DNA from: an uncultured Pelagibacteraceae bacterium
GTDB taxonomy: Bacteria; Pseudomonadota; Alphaproteobacteria; Pelagibacterales; Pelagibacteraceae
Length of the DNA stretch: 64,000 bases
NCBI GenBank assembly: GCA_902581585.1
Contig: CACHPB010000005.1
Location: forward strand, 1-64,000
Direction of reading: 5' to 3'
The notes beneath the pieces are model-generated. The model ran no database searches and was not told where the DNA came from. It worked only from the letters and a program-made list of their open reading frames with translations. Within the stretch, counting starts at the first letter, position 1. Each line of letters begins with the position of its first letter. Position numbers and translations under genes: made by a program. This document shows positions 4,403 to 55,292 of this stretch, piece after piece.

Positions 4403-5523
4403 TTAGCATTAAACCCAATTAGATTGTCTATGCCATACTTTGGTCTTTTGGCTAAATAAGTAATATCTTTTTCATGTTTTATTCCAGTTACCATTTCCAT
4501 TAAGGTATCAATAGCTAAAGCCTCTTGATGTGTGTGCTTTCTAGCATTATGTTTTTTATATTGATTATTTTTTTGCTTACCATCGTATTTTCTTGAGGAG
4601 AAACTTTCATAATCAGTGATCCCTAAATTTAATACTTCTGCTGCTTTAGTAATTCTATTGATAACTGAGTCTGGAACTTTAGCCCCCCAATTTTTAGCTA
4701 AATAGATGTATCCTAAAGCTGAATTTAAACCATAAGAGTGATACCATAAGGCTCGAAACCCTCTAAAAGAATTATTATTGATATAGCCATCATCATAAAA
4801 CACTTCCTCTATATTTTTAAATCTAAAATTGAATTCTTTTGCTGCTAGTTTTTTATTATTTGTCCAATGAGCATAAGCTAAGTTTGGAATTCCTCCGTTT
4901 CCCATCGCATAAAATCCTTTTTCTTTCTCTAAAAATTCTTCAGGCTTAATAAATTTTTTATGCATTTTTTTAATATACTTGTTAACAATTTTAATTTCTT
5001 TATCACTTAAGTAATCTTTAAGATAAATTGCTATCAGCAAATAATTTGTAAAAGCATCCCTTGCAAATTCATATGCATGGTACCAGCAAGGTGCCTCAGG
5101 ATTTCCATCTTTCCAACATTTTGGTTTTTTTTTTAACTCTTCTTTACTGATTGTATTTAATAAAACATTTGCTTTAGCTATTTTAATCAATATTCCTTTA
5201 GCAGCATCAATGTCATTTTTATCATTATTGCCAATTGCATTATGGGTAGCAACAGCAAACGAGCTCATTGGACCAGTTAGATTTAGGTGATTTACGCTTC
5301 TAGAATTACCAAGCGCCCATTCACTCATCCAATCTAAACGTATTAAGCTTTCAATTCTAGCTTTTTTATATTTAGATTTAAAAGTCTCACTACCCACATA
5401 AGAGCATGATTTAATCTTATCTGTATAAAAATGTTTTGGAAAAGATATATCTTTAGATTTAACTTTTGCTTCAGCAGATAAACATAAAAATATGCCAAAT
5501 AAAGTTAAATAAATTTTTTTCAT
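4390..5523 (-). CDS. Secreted alginate-lyase-family protein
   Basis: 377 aa, signal peptide; ATHNAIGNNDKNDIDAAKGILIKIAKAN, FARDAFTNYLLIAIYL, GNGGIPNLAYAHW, FRGFRALWYHSYGLNSALGYIYLA typical of alginate lyase (alpha/alpha toroid) proteins. Confidence 0.65.
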   Translation of the reverse strand: MKKIYLTLFGIFLCLSAEAKVKSKDISFPKHFYTDKIKSCSYVGSETFKSKYKKARIESLIRLDWMSEWALGNSRSVNHLNLTGPMSSFAVATHNAIGNNDKNDIDAAKGILIKIAKANVLLNTISKEELKKKPKCWKDGNPEAPCWYHAYEFARDAFTNYLLIAIYLKDYLSDKEIKIVNKYIKKMHKKFIKPEEFLEKEKGFYAMGNGGIPNLAYAHWTNNKKLAAKEFNFRFKNIEEVFYDDGYINNNSFRGFRALWYHSYGLNSALGYIYLAKNWGAKVPDSVINRITKAAEVLNLGITDYESFSSRKYDGKQKNNQYKKHNARKHTHQEALAIDTLMEMVTGIKHEKDITYLAKRPKYGIDNLIGFNANCIK

Positions 5524-6440
5524 TTCAAAAATGATTTTGAAACCTCAAGAATATGGCTAGGATTAAATTTTTTATCATTTTTTCTATATGAATAAACTTC
5601 ATACTTTTCTACACTTTGAGACTCGAGCTTTTGACATTCAGATTTATTAAATAATTTTTCACATTTTTTTTCAGATCGTACTCCATCAAAAAAAATAATT
5701 CTTTGAGGCATTTTCTTTGTTTCAAATATATTTTTATATCTAGACATTGAACTATTATATAATCCATATCTTAAACTTTGCTCCTTACCTTTATTTGGAT
5801 GATTTGAAATACCCTTAAAATCAATCTTTAGTTGTCCATCTATCCAGACCTTCATGAAACCCTTATCGGGGTCAGGGTGCCAATTAGTATTAAAAATAAT
5901 TTGAGTCCAATTTCCTAATAATTCATCATTTTTTTTTAGTAGTACGTAAGAGTCTGTAAATGTATCTCCATTTCTATTAAAAGTTAAACCTGCATGCATG
6001 TGTTGAAACATAACTAAAACTTTTGAAGGCTTATGTCTCTTCCACTGTATTAAAGACATCTTAGATGGCGCAACTGAATTATAATCTTTTGGTAAGAAAA
6101 TATAAAATTGATACCATCGCTCAGCTTTTGACGGGTATCTTTTGTAGTATAGCTCAGTTCTTTCTCTATCATTTTCACAATCACTCCATTTTGGTTCGTA
6201 ACCACATTCACCATCATTTAGTTCAAATCTAACTGATTTATCTCCAACAATAGAAAAATCAGATACAGAAACAGGATTAATTGCATGTCTCGCATTTAGA
6301 AAATGAAATTGTTCAGGAATTGCTTTTCCGTATTTATCCTCTTTTAAAGCTTTTTTGACTTGTGAAAATTTTGTTTTAGAAAATGCTGTCCCATTGATCA
6401 TAGCAAACATCATAAAAAATAATAAAAATTTTTTTATCAT
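5520..6440 (-). CDS. Secreted polysaccharide lyase-like protein (PF14099-type)
   Basis: 306 aa, signal peptide; DRERTELYYKRYPSKAERWYQFYIFLPKDY, WTQIIFNTNWHPDPDKGFMKVWIDGQL, RYGLYNSSMSRY. Confidence 0.7.
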   Translation of the reverse strand: MIKKFLLFFMMFAMINGTAFSKTKFSQVKKALKEDKYGKAIPEQFHFLNARHAINPVSVSDFSIVGDKSVRFELNDGECGYEPKWSDCENDRERTELYYKRYPSKAERWYQFYIFLPKDYNSVAPSKMSLIQWKRHKPSKVLVMFQHMHAGLTFNRNGDTFTDSYVLLKKNDELLGNWTQIIFNTNWHPDPDKGFMKVWIDGQLKIDFKGISNHPNKGKEQSLRYGLYNSSMSRYKNIFETKKMPQRIIFFDGVRSEKKCEKLFNKSECQKLESQSVEKYEVYSYRKNDKKFNPSHILEVSKSFLK

Positions 6441-7444
6441 TAAAAAGGTCTTGGGTTGTTTGGGTAGCCTAAATTTTTACAAGTACTAGATTGCGGAGCA
6501 GTTTTGCATAATACAACAACCCTGACTCCATTAAGTTTAGATCGATCTGATAGTTGGCTTATAATTTCATTACATCCACTCCACAAGTCTTCACATTTGT
6601 CAGCTTTACCAACATTAGAGTATCTTATTTTAAGATCAGGAACTTCTAAACCTTCATTGGTTGCCTGGTGCATATGGTGTCTGTATGGTCCAAATTTAAA
6701 TCTTACACTTGATGCACCACCCAAAGTATCACCAAAGTAACTTGATCTAAGTTTTCCATCTATCCACATGTGCAAAAATCCATCTTTGGACCATCTTGCA
6801 TTTACTAAAACATTGACCCATTTGCCTTTTAATGGTGAAAAATTATGATCAAGATTAACAAAATATGTATCGAAGTATAAATATTCCTCACCTGTCTCAT
6901 TTTTATGCGAAGTATAATTTGGTGAGTTAAATACCCAATTAAATCTATTATTTATAATATTTAGTGCTGCATCATGAGTTTTCTCACCTTTTCCATATAA
7001 TTTTTTGAAATCAAATAAAGATATTGTATGCTTGTCAGTTCTTATATCCACTGGTACGAAATAACCAACTCTATACCATTTTGTTTTATTTTTTTTTGTA
7101 GTTTCTTTATAAGGTTCCATGATTTGAAATCTTTGAGCATGACCTTCAATGTCATATCTTTTCCAATCAAGTTTATGCCCTTTGAATGAATATTTTAAAT
7201 CGAATTCTATTCCTTTTTCAGTAACTCCCATTCTATCCTCAAATTTATCAAAAAATTTATAAATATTAGGATCTTTGATGTTTCTTGTATTAAAAACCAT
7301 TTTGTTATCTGATTGAGCTTTCAAAACATAATAAGCAAAATCTTTTTTTTCCTTTTTTTTCATTTTTATATGCCACTTTTCTGCATAAGAATGGGATGAT
7401 ACTAAAAATAAGATTATAAAAAATATTAAATTGATTTTTTTCAT
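6440..7444 (-). CDS. Secreted polysaccharide lyase-like protein (PF14099-type)
   Basis: 334 aa, signal peptide; GHAQRFQIMEPYKETTKKNKTKWYRVGYFVPVDI, WVNVLVNARWSKDGFLHMWIDGKLR, KFGPYRHHMHQ. Confidence 0.7.
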   Translation of the reverse strand: MKKINLIFFIILFLVSSHSYAEKWHIKMKKKEKKDFAYYVLKAQSDNKMVFNTRNIKDPNIYKFFDKFEDRMGVTEKGIEFDLKYSFKGHKLDWKRYDIEGHAQRFQIMEPYKETTKKNKTKWYRVGYFVPVDIRTDKHTISLFDFKKLYGKGEKTHDAALNIINNRFNWVFNSPNYTSHKNETGEEYLYFDTYFVNLDHNFSPLKGKWVNVLVNARWSKDGFLHMWIDGKLRSSYFGDTLGGASSVRFKFGPYRHHMHQATNEGLEVPDLKIRYSNVGKADKCEDLWSGCNEIISQLSDRSKLNGVRVVVLCKTAPQSSTCKNLGYPNNPRPF

Positions 7445-7453
7445 TTGTATATT

Positions 7454-8467
7454 TTAGTTAAGTTTTAAATTTTTTATTGAACCATCTTTATAAGTAAACT
7501 CTACCTCTTCTTTTGAAATAGACTTTATTGATGTAAAACCATCATATTCAGTTATGAATTCGTTTAATTTTTTTCTACTTTTCTTTGACATTTTTTTGCC
7601 TGGTGCGTTTACGCCTACATCAATAATTAATTCAGCACCGTTTAGAAAAGCATTTACATAAGCTTTTATCGGAGGACCACAGGTCATAGCCTCTGTCAAC
7701 CAAATTGGTTTATCAACATCAACTCTTTTTAACAAATCAGCAAATTCATCTACCCATAGCTCTTTATCACACTGTCCATCTGGACCGCTTATATGGTGAA
7801 TGTTTGCAATATCAAAATGATCCTTAATTTTTGGCAAAGCTGATTTCCAATATTTTTTATTTTCTGGAAACATTCCTGCAGCTCCAGCCATAACGATAAC
7901 TGCATCTGGTTGCTGTTCTTTAATTACTTTTGAAGAAAAATTAAAAATTTCAACAAAATCTTCCTCGCTTCCTTTAAAAAACATATCAAACTCAGGTTCA
8001 TTCATCACATCCCAATATATAATTGGTTTTGTTAATCCAGGCATATCATTTGAACCATCTCCATCATATCTATCCACCAATTTTATAAGGAAAGTTTTAT
8101 AATCTTCCATGGAACAAGGTTTGCTCAAATATTTTGTAAAACGTTTTCCAAATGGACTTCTGGCTTTTTTTCTTTTACAAGATTTTTGATCCCAATTTGT
8201 ATGAGGCCAGATAGTTGCTAAAATTGTTTGGTTGTGTTCCTGTGCATATAAAACGTATTTATCTACATCTTCCCAAAAAAATTTACCTTTTTCACTTTCG
8301 ATATGATTCCAAACGAAAGGTCCTGGATGAGGTCTTACCCATTGACCATCTTTGCCACGCATTTTTTTGTCTCTCATTTCAGTTAATTCGCCAAATCTAG
8401 ATTGAGAATTTGCAAAATTTGTTAACAATAAAAATGATAATAAAATTGTTAGTATTCTTTTCATCAA
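7454..8467 (-). CDS. Secreted clan-A-like glycoside hydrolase
   Basis: 337 aa, signal peptide; FVWNHIESEKGKFFWEDVDKYV, IIYWDVMNEPEFDMFF (acid/base Glu), PIWLTEAMTCGPP (candidate nucleophile Glu). Confidence 0.75.
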   Translation of the reverse strand: MMKRILTILLSFLLLTNFANSQSRFGELTEMRDKKMRGKDGQWVRPHPGPFVWNHIESEKGKFFWEDVDKYVLYAQEHNQTILATIWPHTNWDQKSCKRKKARSPFGKRFTKYLSKPCSMEDYKTFLIKLVDRYDGDGSNDMPGLTKPIIYWDVMNEPEFDMFFKGSEEDFVEIFNFSSKVIKEQQPDAVIVMAGAAGMFPENKKYWKSALPKIKDHFDIANIHHISGPDGQCDKELWVDEFADLLKRVDVDKPIWLTEAMTCGPPIKAYVNAFLNGAELIIDVGVNAPGKKMSKKSRKKLNEFITEYDGFTSIKSISKEEVEFTYKDGSIKNLKLN

Positions 8468-9621
8468 CTTTTAAATAATTTTTCAGATAAGTTTTGAAGT
8501 TTATCTCCCCAAAAAACTTCTTTTTGTATTCTTTTAAAATCTATATCAAAAACTGTAGACATGGCCGATGCATAAACAGATCTAGCGTCAATTGTTGAAT
8601 TTAAGTCTCTTCCCTCAAATAATTCTTTTCTCTTTAGTCCTGGCCAATCTGCATAAACCTGCGATTTTTTTAATAAACCGCCTGTCATAAAAATTGCAGA
8701 CCCATAGCCATGTTCTGTGCCACGTCCTCCATTTTGTTCTATAGTTCTACCAAATTCAGTTAGAGTTAAAACTAAAGTATTTTGAATTTCATTCCCTAGA
8801 CCCATCTCTAAACTTTTAAAAATAGAGTCCATTTCAATTAAACTATCTGAATGAGAACCATTCACTCCTCCCTGAGCAGCATGTGTATCAAAGCCATCAA
8901 CTTCAAAAACAGCAACTCTTGGACCATTTATTTTTTTTAATTCCAAACCTGCTTTTAATGCTAAAGATGAATTTTTTCTAGACATTGAAGTTCCACCACT
9001 ACTCATCGTTGACCTATTAGCTATTATTTCCATCATGTTAGCTAGGTCATGTTCAGATTTTTCAGCATAAATTGATTTTAAAAGTTTTAAAAGTTCTGTT
9101 CTTGGAAGTCTTTTCTTTGATGGATAAAAATTATCATTACTTGGAATACCTCTAAGTAGTAAAGGCATCGGTAAAGCTAATGCAAGGCCATCTCCTTTTA
9201 ATTCTGCTAACTTCATTCCTCTTCCTAGCCAACCAGTTTTGACAGCATAAGGAATATGTCCACCTGTCTCCATTAAATTTTGTCCATCAAAATGTGATCT
9301 TTTAGTATATGGAATATTTGTTGCATGAACGACTGCTCCTAGATTCTTTTTCCATAAATTATGAAAATTTTTTAATTTAGGATGTAGAGCAAAATCAGAA
9401 TCTAGCTTAATTGTTCGATCTAAAATTAAATCTTTTCTTCTTTTTTCGAAATTTTTGTCACCAATTATTGGGACAGCGCACAAACCATCCATTCCACCTC
9501 TTAACATTATAACTACAAGATTTTTTTTCTTGTCTGTATTTGCTAAAACTGGAAAATTAAAACCAGCAAAAAATAACGTAGTGGCTGACCCTTTTAAAAA
9601 ATTTCTTCTTGATATCTTCAT
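8464..9621 (-). CDS. DUF1501 family protein with Tat-like signal
   Basis: 385 aa; MKISRRNFLKGSATTLFFAGF, VIMLRGGMDGLCAVPI, EVDGFDTHAAQGG, LTEFGRTIEQNGGRGTEHGYGSAIFMTGG. Confidence 0.9.
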   Translation of the reverse strand: MKISRRNFLKGSATTLFFAGFNFPVLANTDKKKNLVVIMLRGGMDGLCAVPIIGDKNFEKRRKDLILDRTIKLDSDFALHPKLKNFHNLWKKNLGAVVHATNIPYTKRSHFDGQNLMETGGHIPYAVKTGWLGRGMKLAELKGDGLALALPMPLLLRGIPSNDNFYPSKKRLPRTELLKLLKSIYAEKSEHDLANMMEIIANRSTMSSGGTSMSRKNSSLALKAGLELKKINGPRVAVFEVDGFDTHAAQGGVNGSHSDSLIEMDSIFKSLEMGLGNEIQNTLVLTLTEFGRTIEQNGGRGTEHGYGSAIFMTGGLLKKSQVYADWPGLKRKELFEGRDLNSTIDARSVYASAMSTVFDIDFKRIQKEVFWGDKLQNLSEKLFKS

Positions 9622-51351: not shown

Positions 51352-51942
51352 ATGATTAAAGCTAAAATTTTTTCTTTTTTATTTCTTATTTATTTATTAA
51401 TAAATCCATCAATGGCTAAAGAGCCAAGCAAATTAATTACAGAGATAGTAAACGAGGCATCAATAATATTATCGAGTTCAGATCCAGTTGAGTCTAAAAT
51501 TATTAAATTAAATAATATCGCAGAAAATAACGTAGATATAAATGGTATTGGAATGTACACCTTAGGAAAATACCGAAAAAATTTGAGTGAGGAACAAAAA
51601 ATAAAATATACAAAATTATTTAAAAGTTATTTTTTAAAAAGTTTTTCAAGTAGGTTAGTAGATTATTCTGATCCAAAAATAAATGTAGTTTCAGAAAAAA
51701 AAATAAACGAAAAATATACTATTGTGAATACCGTCTTAGAAGAAACTTCTAAAAATCCAGAGATAAAAATAGATTGGAGAATATATACAAAAAATCCTGA
51801 AAGACCGTTAATTAGAGATCTAATTGTAGAAGGTTTAAGTTTAGCAAGAACTCAAAAAGAAGAATTTAAATCTATAATTCAAAACAATAATGGAGATATC
51901 AACTACCTTTTTAAATCTCTTGAGGAGTTTATTATAAAGTAG
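51352..51942 (+). CDS. mlaC: MlaC/Ttg2D-family phospholipid-binding protein
   Basis: 196 aa, signal peptide; YTLGKYRKNLSEEQKIKYTKLFKSYFLKSFSSRLVDY, RDLIVEGLSLARTQKEEFKSII. Confidence 0.9.
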   Translation: MIKAKIFSFLFLIYLLINPSMAKEPSKLITEIVNEASIILSSSDPVESKIIKLNNIAENNVDINGIGMYTLGKYRKNLSEEQKIKYTKLFKSYFLKSFSSRLVDYSDPKINVVSEKKINEKYTIVNTVLEETSKNPEIKIDWRIYTKNPERPLIRDLIVEGLSLARTQKEEFKSIIQNNNGDINYLFKSLEEFIIK

Positions 51943-51989
51943 TTTGGTGGGCCCGCCAGGACTCGAACCTGGGACCAATACATTATGAG
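51943..51989 (-). repeat. 47-bp perfect direct repeat = 3' half (anticodon loop to CCA) of the tRNA at 53491-53567; candidate att remnant or tRNA pseudogene
   Basis: tttggtgggcccgccaggactcgaacctgggaccaatacattatgag identical to 53489-53535. Confidence 0.95.
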
Positions 51990-52118
51990 AGTCCTGAAGT
52001 AACTTAAATCAAGATTGCTATTGTTTGTTAATTTGAATTGAATTTTTCGATTTACACAATTTCGAATACTACAAAAATATGAAATTAGACAAATAAAAGT
52101 GTATTTTAGTGAAAATTA

Positions 52119-52514
52119 TTATCTGTTATCACAGAGTGTCTTTATAATATTTCCCATAATTGTACCTGGAGGAAGATAATTCCATTTTAATTTATCTCTT
52201 TGAAAATTTGAAAATTTCCCAGTGCCCATTTGCCCTTCATAGAATATATATTGTACACCAGCAGATCTTATAAGATTACAATCTATTTTATGAAATGTTT
52301 TACCAGACAAAATTGATTTACCGTTGTCAACTACTGGTTTTTTCCAATCTTTCAATGACCATATATATAAATATTCACCATCGTCTGAAAGAGTTTTAAT
52401 ATCTAAATACATTTTTCCATCTGGTTGCTCTATATTTCCCACTTCAATCCACTCTGCTTTTACGTTTGAAATTAATAAAAAGATAAAACTAAATATAACT
52501 AAGTATTTTTTCAT
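52119..52514 (-). CDS. Hypothetical secreted protein (mini-island gene)
   Basis: 131 aa; signal peptide MKKYLVIFSFIFLLISNVKAEW; EVGNIEQPDGKMYLDIKTL...YLYIWSLKDW resembles surface-adhesin-E-like small secreted proteins. Confidence 0.6.
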   Translation of the reverse strand: MKKYLVIFSFIFLLISNVKAEWIEVGNIEQPDGKMYLDIKTLSDDGEYLYIWSLKDWKKPVVDNGKSILSGKTFHKIDCNLIRSAGVQYIFYEGQMGTGKFSNFQRDKLKWNYLPPGTIMGNIIKTLCDNR

Positions 52515-52699
52515 TTGTGTTTTTTTCTAAACTTCTCGTTTATATTATCCATATAAACTCTAATCTTTTCTCTTTCTGTAACTTCTCTACCCTCTTTTAA
52601 TTGCCGGGCTAATTTCTTTTTTTTATATGAGTAATAAATTGGCAATACGATTGATAAGCCAACTATAATTATTGCTAGTATTATTTGCCAAGTTTCCAT
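52511..52699 (-). CDS. Hypothetical small membrane protein (mini-island)
   Basis: 62 aa; one TM IILAIIIVGLSIVLPIYYSY then basic tail; overlaps 52514 start by 4 bp. Confidence 0.5.
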   Translation of the reverse strand: METWQIILAIIIVGLSIVLPIYYSYKKKKLARQLKEGREVTEREKIRVYMDNINEKFRKKHK

Positions 52700-52941
52700 T
52701 AGTTTATTGTCTTAAAGTAATCCTCTAAATTAGAATGTGCAATATCATTTAAATCCCACTCCCACCTCTCTACTGTGCGTTTATTTGGATTTTCTGATAA
52801 AATTGCTTCGATAAAATCTTTTTGAATGATAATCTTAATTAGAACTGAAATTTCTGGAGGAAAATAATTTACTAACCTGGGTATTTGTTTATCGAATTCC
52901 TTTAGTGAAATTTTTTTATCAAATTTTATTTTTAATTCCAA
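52699..52941 (-). CDS. Hypothetical protein (mini-island)
   Basis: 80 aa; 1-bp overlap with downstream ORF, no recognised motif. Confidence 0.45.
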   Translation of the reverse strand: MELKIKFDKKISLKEFDKQIPRLVNYFPPEISVLIKIIIQKDFIEAILSENPNKRTVERWEWDLNDIAHSNLEDYFKTIN

Positions 52942-52970
52942 GCTGTTCTCCTCACTTTTTTTTCATATAT

Positions 52971-53342
52971 TTAAAATAGTGTAGCTAAAATACTAATGAT
53001 TATAAATAATATAACAAAGGGCACAGCCCAACCAAAGAAGAAATCAAAAGTATCATAAATGCCTTTTAATAAATTTGTCAGTGGATTATCATTTTTTTTT
53101 AAATTTTTTCTGCCTTTTTCAGTTTTTTTTGAATAATCTTTTCCTGGAAAAATTTTAAAATAATATTTTGGAAAATCGATCCAAAATAGTGCAACTATTG
53201 GAATTGAAAATGCTAAAGCAATAGTACCTAAAAAACTCGATTCATTAAAATCTATATTAAATGATTTAGATAAATGGGAGAGCAAATATAAAGTTAAAAT
53301 AAATCCAATTACTCGAAAGGGCCAAAAGAAAAAAATATACAC
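52971..53342 (-). CDS. Hypothetical membrane protein (mini-island)
   Basis: 123 aa; three hydrophobic segments. Confidence 0.5.
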   Translation of the reverse strand: MYIFFFWPFRVIGFILTLYLLSHLSKSFNIDFNESSFLGTIALAFSIPIVALFWIDFPKYYFKIFPGKDYSKKTEKGRKNLKKNDNPLTNLLKGIYDTFDFFFGWAVPFVILFIIISILATLF

Positions 53343-53490
53343 AGCTATATTTTATTAAACTTTATCGAATAAGACCAGTACATTGCTAAAAATGATTGGA
53401 CTCAATTTGGTATACAATGAAAAAATTTTTAGAGTTTTTTTGCTAAAATTTTAAGAAACTTAATTTTCTAAACGTTGATTTTACTGGATT

Positions 53491-53567
53491 TGGTGGGCCC
53501 GCCAGGACTCGAACCTGGGACCAATACATTATGAGTGTACTGCTCTAACCAACTGAGCTACAGGCCC
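53491..53567 (-). tRNA. tRNA with CAU anticodon (Met or Ile2; not distinguishable by eye)
   Basis: GGGCCTGTAGCTCAGTTGGTTAGAGCAGTACACTCATAATGTATTGGTCCCAGGTTCGAGTCCTGGCGGGCCCACCA, cloverleaf intact, CCA encoded. Confidence 0.95.
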
Positions 53568-53666
53568 TAAATTGAGGGTTTTTTACAATAACTATTGTGC
53601 TCTAGCAAGGAATAAAACTTAATTCTAAAAAATTTTAGTTTTTTAAGTAATTTAGTATAGTTATTT

Positions 53667-55283
53667 ATGGAAAAATCAAAGGGTGATTTTTTAACAAAAG
53701 AAATAAGTAAAATTTTGAATTTTTATAAGTCAGGTGACTATCACTCAATTATAATTAGGTCAAAAAAACTTTTAAAAAAATATCCAGATTTTAGTCCACT
53801 TTATAATTTTTTAGGGATAAGCTATAGACAACAAGGAAAAATAAAACTTGCAGAGAAAATACTTCTGAAAGGGTACTCAATAGATCCAAAAAATCCTGGA
53901 ATATTAACAAATCTAGGATCGATTTACAGAATAAAAAATAATAAAAAAGATTCACTAAAATACTTTGAGGAGTCTTTCAAAATAAATCCTAATGATATTG
54001 CACTTTTAGTTAATTATGCGAATGCTTTAAGTGATTTTAACAGAATTCAAAAGTCAATTAGTCTTTTAGAAAAAGCTAGGCTAATTGACAAAAATAACCA
54101 GACTGTGCTTATCAGTCTTGCGAGTTCATATCAAAATTTAGGAAAATTTGAAGATGCCAGAAATATATTATTAGAAATTATTGAAAAATTTTCTGAATTA
54201 ACAATTCCTCATAAAATGCTTTCAGACATTACTAAATATAAAGTTAATGATAAACATCATTTACAAATGCTGAAATATGCTGAACACATTGATAAAAATC
54301 ATACAAAGTATACTGAGGAATTAAAATATCCTCTGTATTTTGGGCTTGCAAAATCGTTTGAAGATCAAAAAAATTTTAGAAATGCTTTCAAATGGTTAAA
54401 AAAAGGTAACGACACAAAAAAATTTACAATTATTAGAGATGCTAAAATATTAAATCAGAAAAATCCAATAAAAAAAGAAATAAATTTTTTGAATATTGTA
54501 CAAGAAATTTTTCAAAATATTGATATAAAGAAATATGATAATGAAAACAAAAGTGGAAAAAATTTAATATTTATTCTTGGATTGCCTAGGTCTGGAACAA
54601 CATTAACACATCAAATTATTGCATCTCATTCTAAAACTTTTGGTGGGGGAGAGCTGAATTTTCTTACCCGTGCAGTATATGATAATATTGATGATCAAAT
54701 TTTCTTAAATATTTTTAAAGACTATAATTTTCAAAAACTAAATAATTTAGTCCAAAATTATATTGAAAATTGCAAAGATTTAAATAATGAGGGAAAAATA
54801 ATTGTGGATAAATCCCCAATGAATTTTAGAATGATAGGGTTTATAAGAATGTTATTCCCAGAGTCTAAGGTTATTCATTGTACTCGTGAAGCTAAAGATA
54901 ATTGTTTGTCGATTTATAAAAATGTTTTTAATGAGTCAAATATTCCATGGAGTTATAATATTGATGATTTGACAACATATTACAGAGAATACAAAAAAAT
55001 AATGAATTTTTGGAATACAAAAATGCCTGGTTTTATCTTTAATTCGAGCTACGATTTATTAGTTAAAAATCAGGAGACTCAATCTAAAAAAATTTTTAAT
55101 TTTTGTAATTTAAATTGGGAAAAAGATACATTAAAATATTACAAAAATATCATTCCGATACAAACCGTAAGTATAGAGCAAGCAAGAAAACCTGTATATC
55201 AAACATCACTAAAAACTTATGAAAATTACTCTGAATTTTTAGATTTTAAGGAAATAGATAATATAGAGAGAGAATATTCTTAA
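53667..55283 (+). CDS. TPR-repeat sulfotransferase
   Basis: 538 aa; N-terminal TPRs (LNNFLGISYRQQGKIKLAEKILLKGYSIDP-like), C-terminal LIFILGLPRSGTTLTHQIIASHSKTFGGGELNF and VIHCTREAKDNCLSIYKNVF. Confidence 0.88.
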   Translation: MEKSKGDFLTKEISKILNFYKSGDYHSIIIRSKKLLKKYPDFSPLYNFLGISYRQQGKIKLAEKILLKGYSIDPKNPGILTNLGSIYRIKNNKKDSLKYFEESFKINPNDIALLVNYANALSDFNRIQKSISLLEKARLIDKNNQTVLISLASSYQNLGKFEDARNILLEIIEKFSELTIPHKMLSDITKYKVNDKHHLQMLKYAEHIDKNHTKYTEELKYPLYFGLAKSFEDQKNFRNAFKWLKKGNDTKKFTIIRDAKILNQKNPIKKEINFLNIVQEIFQNIDIKKYDNENKSGKNLIFILGLPRSGTTLTHQIIASHSKTFGGGELNFLTRAVYDNIDDQIFLNIFKDYNFQKLNNLVQNYIENCKDLNNEGKIIVDKSPMNFRMIGFIRMLFPESKVIHCTREAKDNCLSIYKNVFNESNIPWSYNIDDLTTYYREYKKIMNFWNTKMPGFIFNSSYDLLVKNQETQSKKIFNFCNLNWEKDTLKYYKNIIPIQTVSIEQARKPVYQTSLKTYENYSEFLDFKEIDNIEREYS

Positions 55284-55292
55284 ATTTAAAAA

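Follow-up and report, generated by a model that had tools for sequence, protein, structure and literature searches.

We examined a small insertion beside a CAU-anticodon tRNA gene in a 64,000-nucleotide stretch of DNA (hereafter the window) from an uncultured Pelagibacteraceae bacterium (GenBank assembly GCA_902581585.1, contig CACHPB010000005.1, positions 1 to 64,000). The segment 51943-53535 is best explained as one member of a family of integrase-less integrative mini-elements, found in Pelagibacteraceae (SAR11) at the gene for a CAU tRNA, with mlaC on one side and tRNA-Val/rpoD on the other. Comparison of the available sequences documents insertion at an exact site, conserved arms, tandem units, turnover of cargo, transfer between hosts and no integrase of their own; taken together, these elements are probably non-autonomous, relying on an integrase encoded outside them to be mobilised, in the manner of cis-mobilisable elements (CIMEs) or tRNA-targeted cassettes. 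A first-pass annotation of this DNA had pointed to a single island bracketed by a tRNA and a copy of its 3' half; beyond that, the element proves to be part of a mosaic, horizontally moving family.

The window element is delimited by a 47-bp repeat, the two same-orientation copies of which aligned with 0 mismatches in a pairwise comparison within the window, just as the first-pass annotation had described. The chance expectation for a 47-bp repeat in this region is ~1e-18, and lengthening the repeat to 61 bp brings the identity to 92%. Forty-five of the 47 bases correspond to the tRNA 3' half including CCA, and the displaced copy begins at the base immediately after the mlaC stop codon (51940-51942), 1,546 bp from the intact tRNA. 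ARAGORN and Rfam both recovered the latter as the sole intact tRNA(CAU) in the window, and neither called a tRNA at the displaced copy. The isotype given by ARAGORN is Met. Two observations point instead to tRNA-Ile2(CAU) as the more likely target: the C4-G69 and C5-G68 pairs of the acceptor stem, which we take to act as TilS determinants, and a separate canonical elongator tRNA-Met(CAU) at another place in this genome (G000:C1:138323).

Comparison of the locus across public genomes of the same genus revealed an empty site in seven of the closest relatives (L039, L043, L044, L046, L048, L049, and L050), where the order is mlaC, ~4-8 bp, one intact tRNA, ~60 bp, tRNA-Val, and rpoD. Joining the window flanks at the repeat reproduces this arrangement and restores the tRNA exactly. 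In other relatives, a tRNA 3'-half copy stands beside mlaC and different genes precede the intact tRNA; relatives do not share the four genes of the window element. The first-pass annotation had anticipated both empty-site strains and other cargo at the same site, and its proposal of an integrase-type insertion into a tRNA gene is supported by these two observations. The exact 31-bp attachment (att) core occurs in 285 of the 399 genus genomes, with two or more copies in 20 of the 399. Site-specific insertion at the tRNA is well supported by the sequence comparisons.

Both ends of the elements are conserved: in an alignment covering 16 of them, non-coding arms recurred on the left and on the right in every one. 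The left arm starts with AGTCCTGAAGnAACTTAAATTAACATT and carries TACACAATTTGGTATACAATGAAAA at ~65-90 bp from the core; the right arm comprises GACCAGTACATTGCT, then GACTCAATTTGGTATACAATGAAAAAATTT, and ends in CTAAACGTTGATTTTACTGGATT. A 26-bp motif is present in both arms and, among the 399 genomes, is exclusive to these elements: the pattern ACWCAATTTSGNAYACAATNAAAAAA produced 15 matches in 12 genomes, every one at an element, and zero in the control. The likeness of the left and right motifs exceeded that of shuffled sequences in 13 of 13 type-1 elements tested (p 0.003-0.04), and shuffling gave p=0.04 for the window. In the type-2 elements (L040 and the second units of L041 and L109) the arm motif varies in step between the two sides, two of them having GTGAGTACC left and right and the third having GTGTGTACAT in the corresponding places; in the variants L114 and L108/L109 both arms are altered and the left-right similarity is not significant. 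Arm similarity was uncorrelated with mlaC divergence (Spearman -0.06 and -0.08), and the right arm, with a median identity of 82%, exceeded mlaC similarity in 24 of 24 divergent pairs. A motif paired across both arms, unique to the elements and changing in step in type 2, is the pattern to be expected of arm-type integrase sites flanking the core in a lambda/P2-type att system, and the paired motifs are candidates for such sites. The attP junction (right arm CTAAACGTTGATTTTACTGGATT, 45-bp tRNA core, left arm AGTCCTGAAG...) constitutes a single searchable sequence.

When 84,980 species genomes were scanned with the right-end pattern, 28 contigs matched; each bears Pelagibacteraceae, Pelagibacter or Pelagibacterales in its title, and single-cell genomes make up the majority. 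Counting one element per genome, complete type-1 elements of 1.06-2.62 kb are present in at least 27 Pelagibacteraceae genomes at species level; 23 of the 27 measured 1,370-2,623 bp (median 1,832), and the other four are L137, L153, L155, and L156, the shortest being ~1.06 kb. Their GC fraction is 0.23-0.30, and they follow one plan, in which the tRNA 3' half, a left arm of ~100 bp, and a right arm of ~125 bp surround one to five variable small genes. The integrase that occurs at this site has no match in any of the type-1 elements. Tandem arrays, with each unit bounded by a tRNA 3' half, were observed in L041 and in L108/L109 (types 1 and 2 in both cases) as well as in L104 of genome G258 (type 1 with an integrase island).

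Hosts whose MlaC proteins match at only 56-76% identity carry cargo proteins that match at 94-100%, as illustrated by L102/L149 (97% vs 56%), L045/L103 (95-98% vs 59%), L099/L105 (98% vs 63%), and L107/L149 (99-100% vs 69%). The cargo is also mosaic: of the three genes in L149, the first recurs in L102 (97%) and the remaining pair in L107 (99-100%), and L045, L103, and L112 have first and last genes in common with differing middle genes. Recent transfer between divergent hosts and turnover of cargo are thus well supported, and homologous recombination between elements probably contributes both to the mosaicism and to the elements without attL. Unrelated cargo proteins in L102, L105, L107, L112, L113, and L152 begin with a near-identical signal peptide (MKKLLGIVVLGLLLSGN...), as if leader sequences had been recombined onto different protein bodies. 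Across the family, the cargo includes MrcB_N with NucS/PDDEXK (a match to the PADLOC candidate PDC-S02), T5orf172/MUG113 (PDC-S57 match), and HNH proteins, besides secreted and membrane proteins; since it is nuclease-like, secreted and membrane-bound, roles in phage defence and surface variation are plausible.

The window element itself carries four small open reading frames (ORFs) on the minus strand (table 1), as previously noted. The accompanying claim that they lack recognisable homology does not hold for ORF A, an Adhesin_E protein with homologues in 5 of the 180 other genus genomes at just 24-33% identity, although the other three remain unknowns. For ORF B, a counterpart with 87% identity lies in the G258 element (L104), where host MlaC identity is 57%; ORF C had no match in the family searches, and ORF D no homologue among the 180 other genus genomes. 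These searches identified no integrase or conjugation family among the four, consistent with the earlier statement that no integrase lies between the repeats. The cargo runs in the direction of the tRNA in 51 of 62 family ORFs of at least 75 aa and in 4 of 4 in the window element, and no terminator-like site was found in the tRNA-to-cargo gap; hence, read-through expression of the cargo from the tRNA is possible, judging from this layout.

Table 1. Features of the mini-element in the window.
Feature	Coordinates	Strand	Basis or remark
Displaced tRNA 3'-half copy, attL-like	51943..51989	-	47 bp; 45 tRNA bases, CCA to just past anticodon loop
Left arm, non-coding	51990..52104	.	Aligned in 16 elements
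Left-arm start AGTCCTGAAGTAACTTAAAT	51990-52009	.	Conserved left arm of element family
Left arm motif TTTACACAATTTCGAATACTACAAAAA	52051-52077	.	Somewhat diverged copy in window
Cargo ORF A, 131 aa, secreted, Adhesin_E (PF16747)	52119..52514	-	Pfam E=1.3e-18
Cargo ORF B, 62 aa, one transmembrane segment	52511..52699	-	ORF analysis
Cargo ORF C, 80 aa, TTG start, no family	52699..52941	-	ORF analysis, family searches
Cargo ORF D, 123 aa, GTG start, several transmembrane segments, no family	52971..53342	-	ORF analysis, Pfam
Right arm, non-coding	53373..53490	.	Aligned in 16 elements
Right-arm stretch GACCAGTACATTGCTAAAAA	53373-53392	.	Right arm of window element
Right arm motif GACTCAATTTGGTATACAATGAAAAAATTT	53399-53428	.	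In 399 genomes only at these elements
Right end CTAAACGTTGATTTTACTGGATT	53468-53490	.	Right-end pattern in 28 contigs, all Pelagibacteraceae/Pelagibacterales
Second 47-bp repeat copy, attR-like, within intact tRNA gene	53489..53535	-	Sequence identity
Intact target tRNA, CAU anticodon, probably tRNA-Ile2	53491..53567	-	ARAGORN, Rfam RF00005

We propose that an arm-binding tyrosine integrase like those of lambda and P2, encoded by a helper island or phage, would recombine a circular element with the tRNA gene at its anticodon-loop end. Because the element would supply a new tRNA 3' half, the tRNA would stay intact, and the old 3' half would be displaced to the far side. Repeated insertion would yield tandem arrays, cargo could then be exchanged between elements, and its expression would proceed by read-through or from an own promoter. 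We infer a helper integrase, excision, and a cell-to-cell route, with mobilisation acting in trans, or in tandem or in cis with the helper.

Integrase-bearing islands occur at the same tRNA. Four genomes (G010, G258, G336, and G368) encode a 322-aa tyrosine integrase ~96 bp inward of the same att copy, within islands L068, L100, L104, and L117 (type 3); its nearest solved structure is 5c6k, annotated Integrase, which we take to be the P2 integrase. Like the mini-elements, these islands have the same tRNA target and core copy and start at the att copy; unlike them, they encode the integrase and carry larger cargo. One of them (G010, L068:~4543-9100) contains, by ORF reading, genes resembling a DNA C5-methyltransferase, a large ATPase/helicase, and an HNH nuclease, and is possibly a defence island. 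Related integrases (~33% identical) were also seen in five SAR11 genomes (L086-L090, ~1356-2586), ~65 bp from the 5' side of the elongator tRNA-Met(CAU), and others adjoin tmRNA (L091 and L094) or tRNA-Leu (L093).

Several points weigh against the proposed mobilisation by a helper. The arms of the type-3 integrase islands differ from those of type 1, with only a 14-bp right-arm stretch in common (CAATGAAAAAATTT), and between their own left and right arms there is no significant similarity. Scans of the genomes and viral collections turned up no integrase that has type-1 arms, which makes the helper for type-1 elements hypothetical; the genome of the window is 82% complete and other hosts are partial too, and such an integrase could sit in the unsequenced part. 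The circular intermediate is likewise one that we infer. Moreover, attL is lost or mutated in L137, L153, L154, and L157, the cores of L137 and L153 being mutated, and part of the element population (these four and also L143) is likely immobile and fixed.

A viral helper was sought in IMG/VR: two core queries (41 bp and 19 bp), two patterns from the arms, and the left-end sequence all failed to give a real match. Matches to the right end or to relaxed arm patterns (L119-L125, L159, and L160) were without the tRNA core, and one inspected pattern match lies within a virion-type protein gene; in known phages, what matched was either a polymerase gene or a tRNA gene belonging to an unrelated large phage. 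Larger type-1 islands were also rejected as an integrase source, as L154 (~4.5 kb) and L155-L157 have none beside the element. In L154 (13669-18066, ~4.5 kb), TonB-receptor-like and B12-binding radical-SAM-like genes precede the type-1 right end, with no left att copy.

Among the alternatives, the plainest is chance or a segmental duplication, in which the displaced copy would be a tRNA pseudogene with local genes between. The first-pass annotation had raised a related caveat, namely that the ~14 bases past the repeat (gt.ctg...taac) partly resemble tRNA and might be the decaying remainder of a full-length duplicate; however, those bases belong to the conserved left arm AGTCCTGAAGTAACTTAAAT, common to elements with unrelated cargo. 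The arm alignment rules out a pseudogene or full-length duplicate, and with an empty site in relatives and a negligible probability of a chance 47-bp repeat, we give this explanation practically no weight. A decayed remnant, that is, an integrase island that lost its integrase and whose leftover ends are immobile and vertically inherited as in a classical CIME, would agree with the definition of CIMEs as having lost integration and transfer genes while keeping attL and attR (PMC5704250), and with the degraded loci at this site (L143 with the right end only, L137 and L153 with mutated attL cores). We nevertheless consider it improbable in view of the single anatomy that recurs, with its arms conserved, its sizes narrow and no integrase remnant, in no fewer than 27 species genomes, the near-identity of cargo across divergent hosts, arms uncorrelated with host divergence, and the lack of the window insert in the closest relatives. 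Of the two terms in the first-pass annotation, "non-autonomous or decayed", the former describes the element much better, given a design recurring with conserved arms.

Homologous exchange of transformed or transduced DNA through the flanking mlaC, tRNA, and rpoD and the shared arms, with no site-specific recombination, finds some favour in the mosaic cargo (L149 vs L102/L107; L045, L103, and L112), is a probable source of that mosaicism and of attL-less elements, and has a parallel in replacement-type islands of marine bacteria, which move in this way (discussed in PMC5217437). As the full explanation it is unlikely: it leaves unexplained the insert boundaries at the tRNA 3' end and anticodon loop, the arms with their paired motifs, and the tRNA-bounded tandem units, and because the adjacent mlaC is divergent in cargo-sharing hosts, the flanks did not travel with the cargo. 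Finally, a resident integron-like system might load and shuffle the cassettes by means of the one conserved tyrosine recombinase on the SAR11 chromosome, of 317-325 aa. A survey for integrases elsewhere in the genome of the window, as the first-pass annotation had advised, returned one PF00589 protein on another contig (L038:1132-2085, G000 contig 6); PF00589 matches occur in 30 of 34 surveyed genomes (mostly element-bearing), usually as a single 325-codon frame, and tandem att-bounded units do resemble a cassette array. Yet this protein is XerD/Cre-like by sequence, far under the curated cut-offs for XerC and XerD, and recombinases of the XerD/Cre type normally use a simple core site without arms, whereas the elements conserve arms; with its gene on contig C6, away from the tRNA locus, and the arm motif absent from the rest of the genomes, we judge a resident recombinase very unlikely.

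The proposed mobilisation by an integrase from elsewhere would place the SAR11 elements close to known systems. CIMEs retain attL and attR but no longer have genes for integration or transfer, and they can be moved once accretion has taken place (PMC5704250); in Dehalococcoides, 15 tmRNA islands without an integration module were read as CIMEs (PMC3146451). Like CIMEs, including these ssrA islands, the SAR11 elements have att-like ends and no integration or transfer genes, which holds for the window with its attL and attR at the target gene, and like CIMEs they stand in tandem accretion beside integrase islands at the same gene. They differ in their much smaller size, one anatomy across many species, conserved paired arm motifs, and no trace of conjugation genes. 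No decay intermediates between integrase islands and mini-elements were seen, the two having the same site and different arms, and the recurrence across species suggests a lifestyle rather than decay.

Tycheposons, given as 4-200 kb (PMC10872708), and marine integrative elements likewise combine tRNA integration with cargo in small-genome marine bacteria, and phage satellites would have helper dependence in common with the proposed elements. Phage-inducible chromosomal minimalist islands (PICMIs) carry excision, integration, and replication genes (PMC10803314). In contrast, the SAR11 elements have neither an integrase nor a replication gene: the window element is 1.5 kb, outside the tycheposon range and without their tyrosine recombinase, and holds no integrase, replication or packaging-hijack gene as in phage-inducible chromosomal islands (PICIs), PICMIs or P4-like satellites, while other elements of the family have small unrelated cargo. 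In Actinomarinales, small cassettes that target tRNA genes and show direct repeats of the tRNA have been reported (PMC7771536), as have tRNA-Lys repeats in Methylopumilus (PMC10872708); in the available portions of these accounts, their islands similarly hold mostly unknown genes in streamlined aquatic genomes, but are described as long islands growing by accretion, with no conserved arms, integrase partner or element family.

Trans-mobilised hitchers have been reviewed (PMC11389934). Integron cassettes, clusters of attC sites lacking integron integrases (CALINs), and miniature inverted-repeat transposable elements (MITEs) resemble the proposed SAR11 elements in being integrase-less with the enzyme encoded elsewhere, in forming arrays, and in shuffling genes (PMC11389934). 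The SAR11 ends, however, look like lambda-type double-stranded arms with a tRNA core instead of attC hairpins or transposon inverted repeats; no attC-type sites are known at them, though no dedicated attC search was run. Against the integron-integrase family, the integrase at the site gave no match and the resident L038 protein a weak one. The family is not described in the available portions of works on SAR11 ecogenomics (PMC7318151) and marine lateral transfer (PMC12416821), within an incomplete coverage of the literature.

Additional variation was observed around the same tRNA. In the window, a 538-aa gene with tetratricopeptide repeats and a sulfotransferase domain (53568-55292) separates the CAU tRNA from tRNA-Val, a gap of only ~60 bp in the closest relatives; a tRNA-Val copy was rejected as the cause of this insertion, there being no tRNA-Val fragment at the other end. 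This gap is also variable in L042, L047, L057, L061, and L067. The L054-L067 clade has ~1.1 kb between mlaC and the tRNA without a 3'-half copy, and in several members the sequence before the tRNA is like the type-1 right end (ttattaacattgattttacttgatttgg); the ~1.1-kb gap is possibly an old fixed insertion. In L143 (1405-1445), just ~25 bp of type-1 right end stand, scar-like, between mlaC and the intact tRNA.

An island of this kind is noteworthy because SAR11 genomes are streamlined. Tentatively, the family might represent a distributed SAR11 cassette system, in which rare, separate helper integrases would act at the essential tRNA-Ile2 gene to load, stack, and exchange integrase-less units of 1-3 kb, with arms and integrases coevolving into compatibility groups (types 1, 2, and variants). 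If true, this would amount to integron-like gene acquisition that uses tRNA att sites, in bacteria among the most abundant in the sea. The family also shows that elements are able to persist as ends and cargo without a recombinase of their own. Minimal elements with identifiable ends offer both a concrete vehicle and a measuring handle for small-gene turnover in streamlined SAR11.
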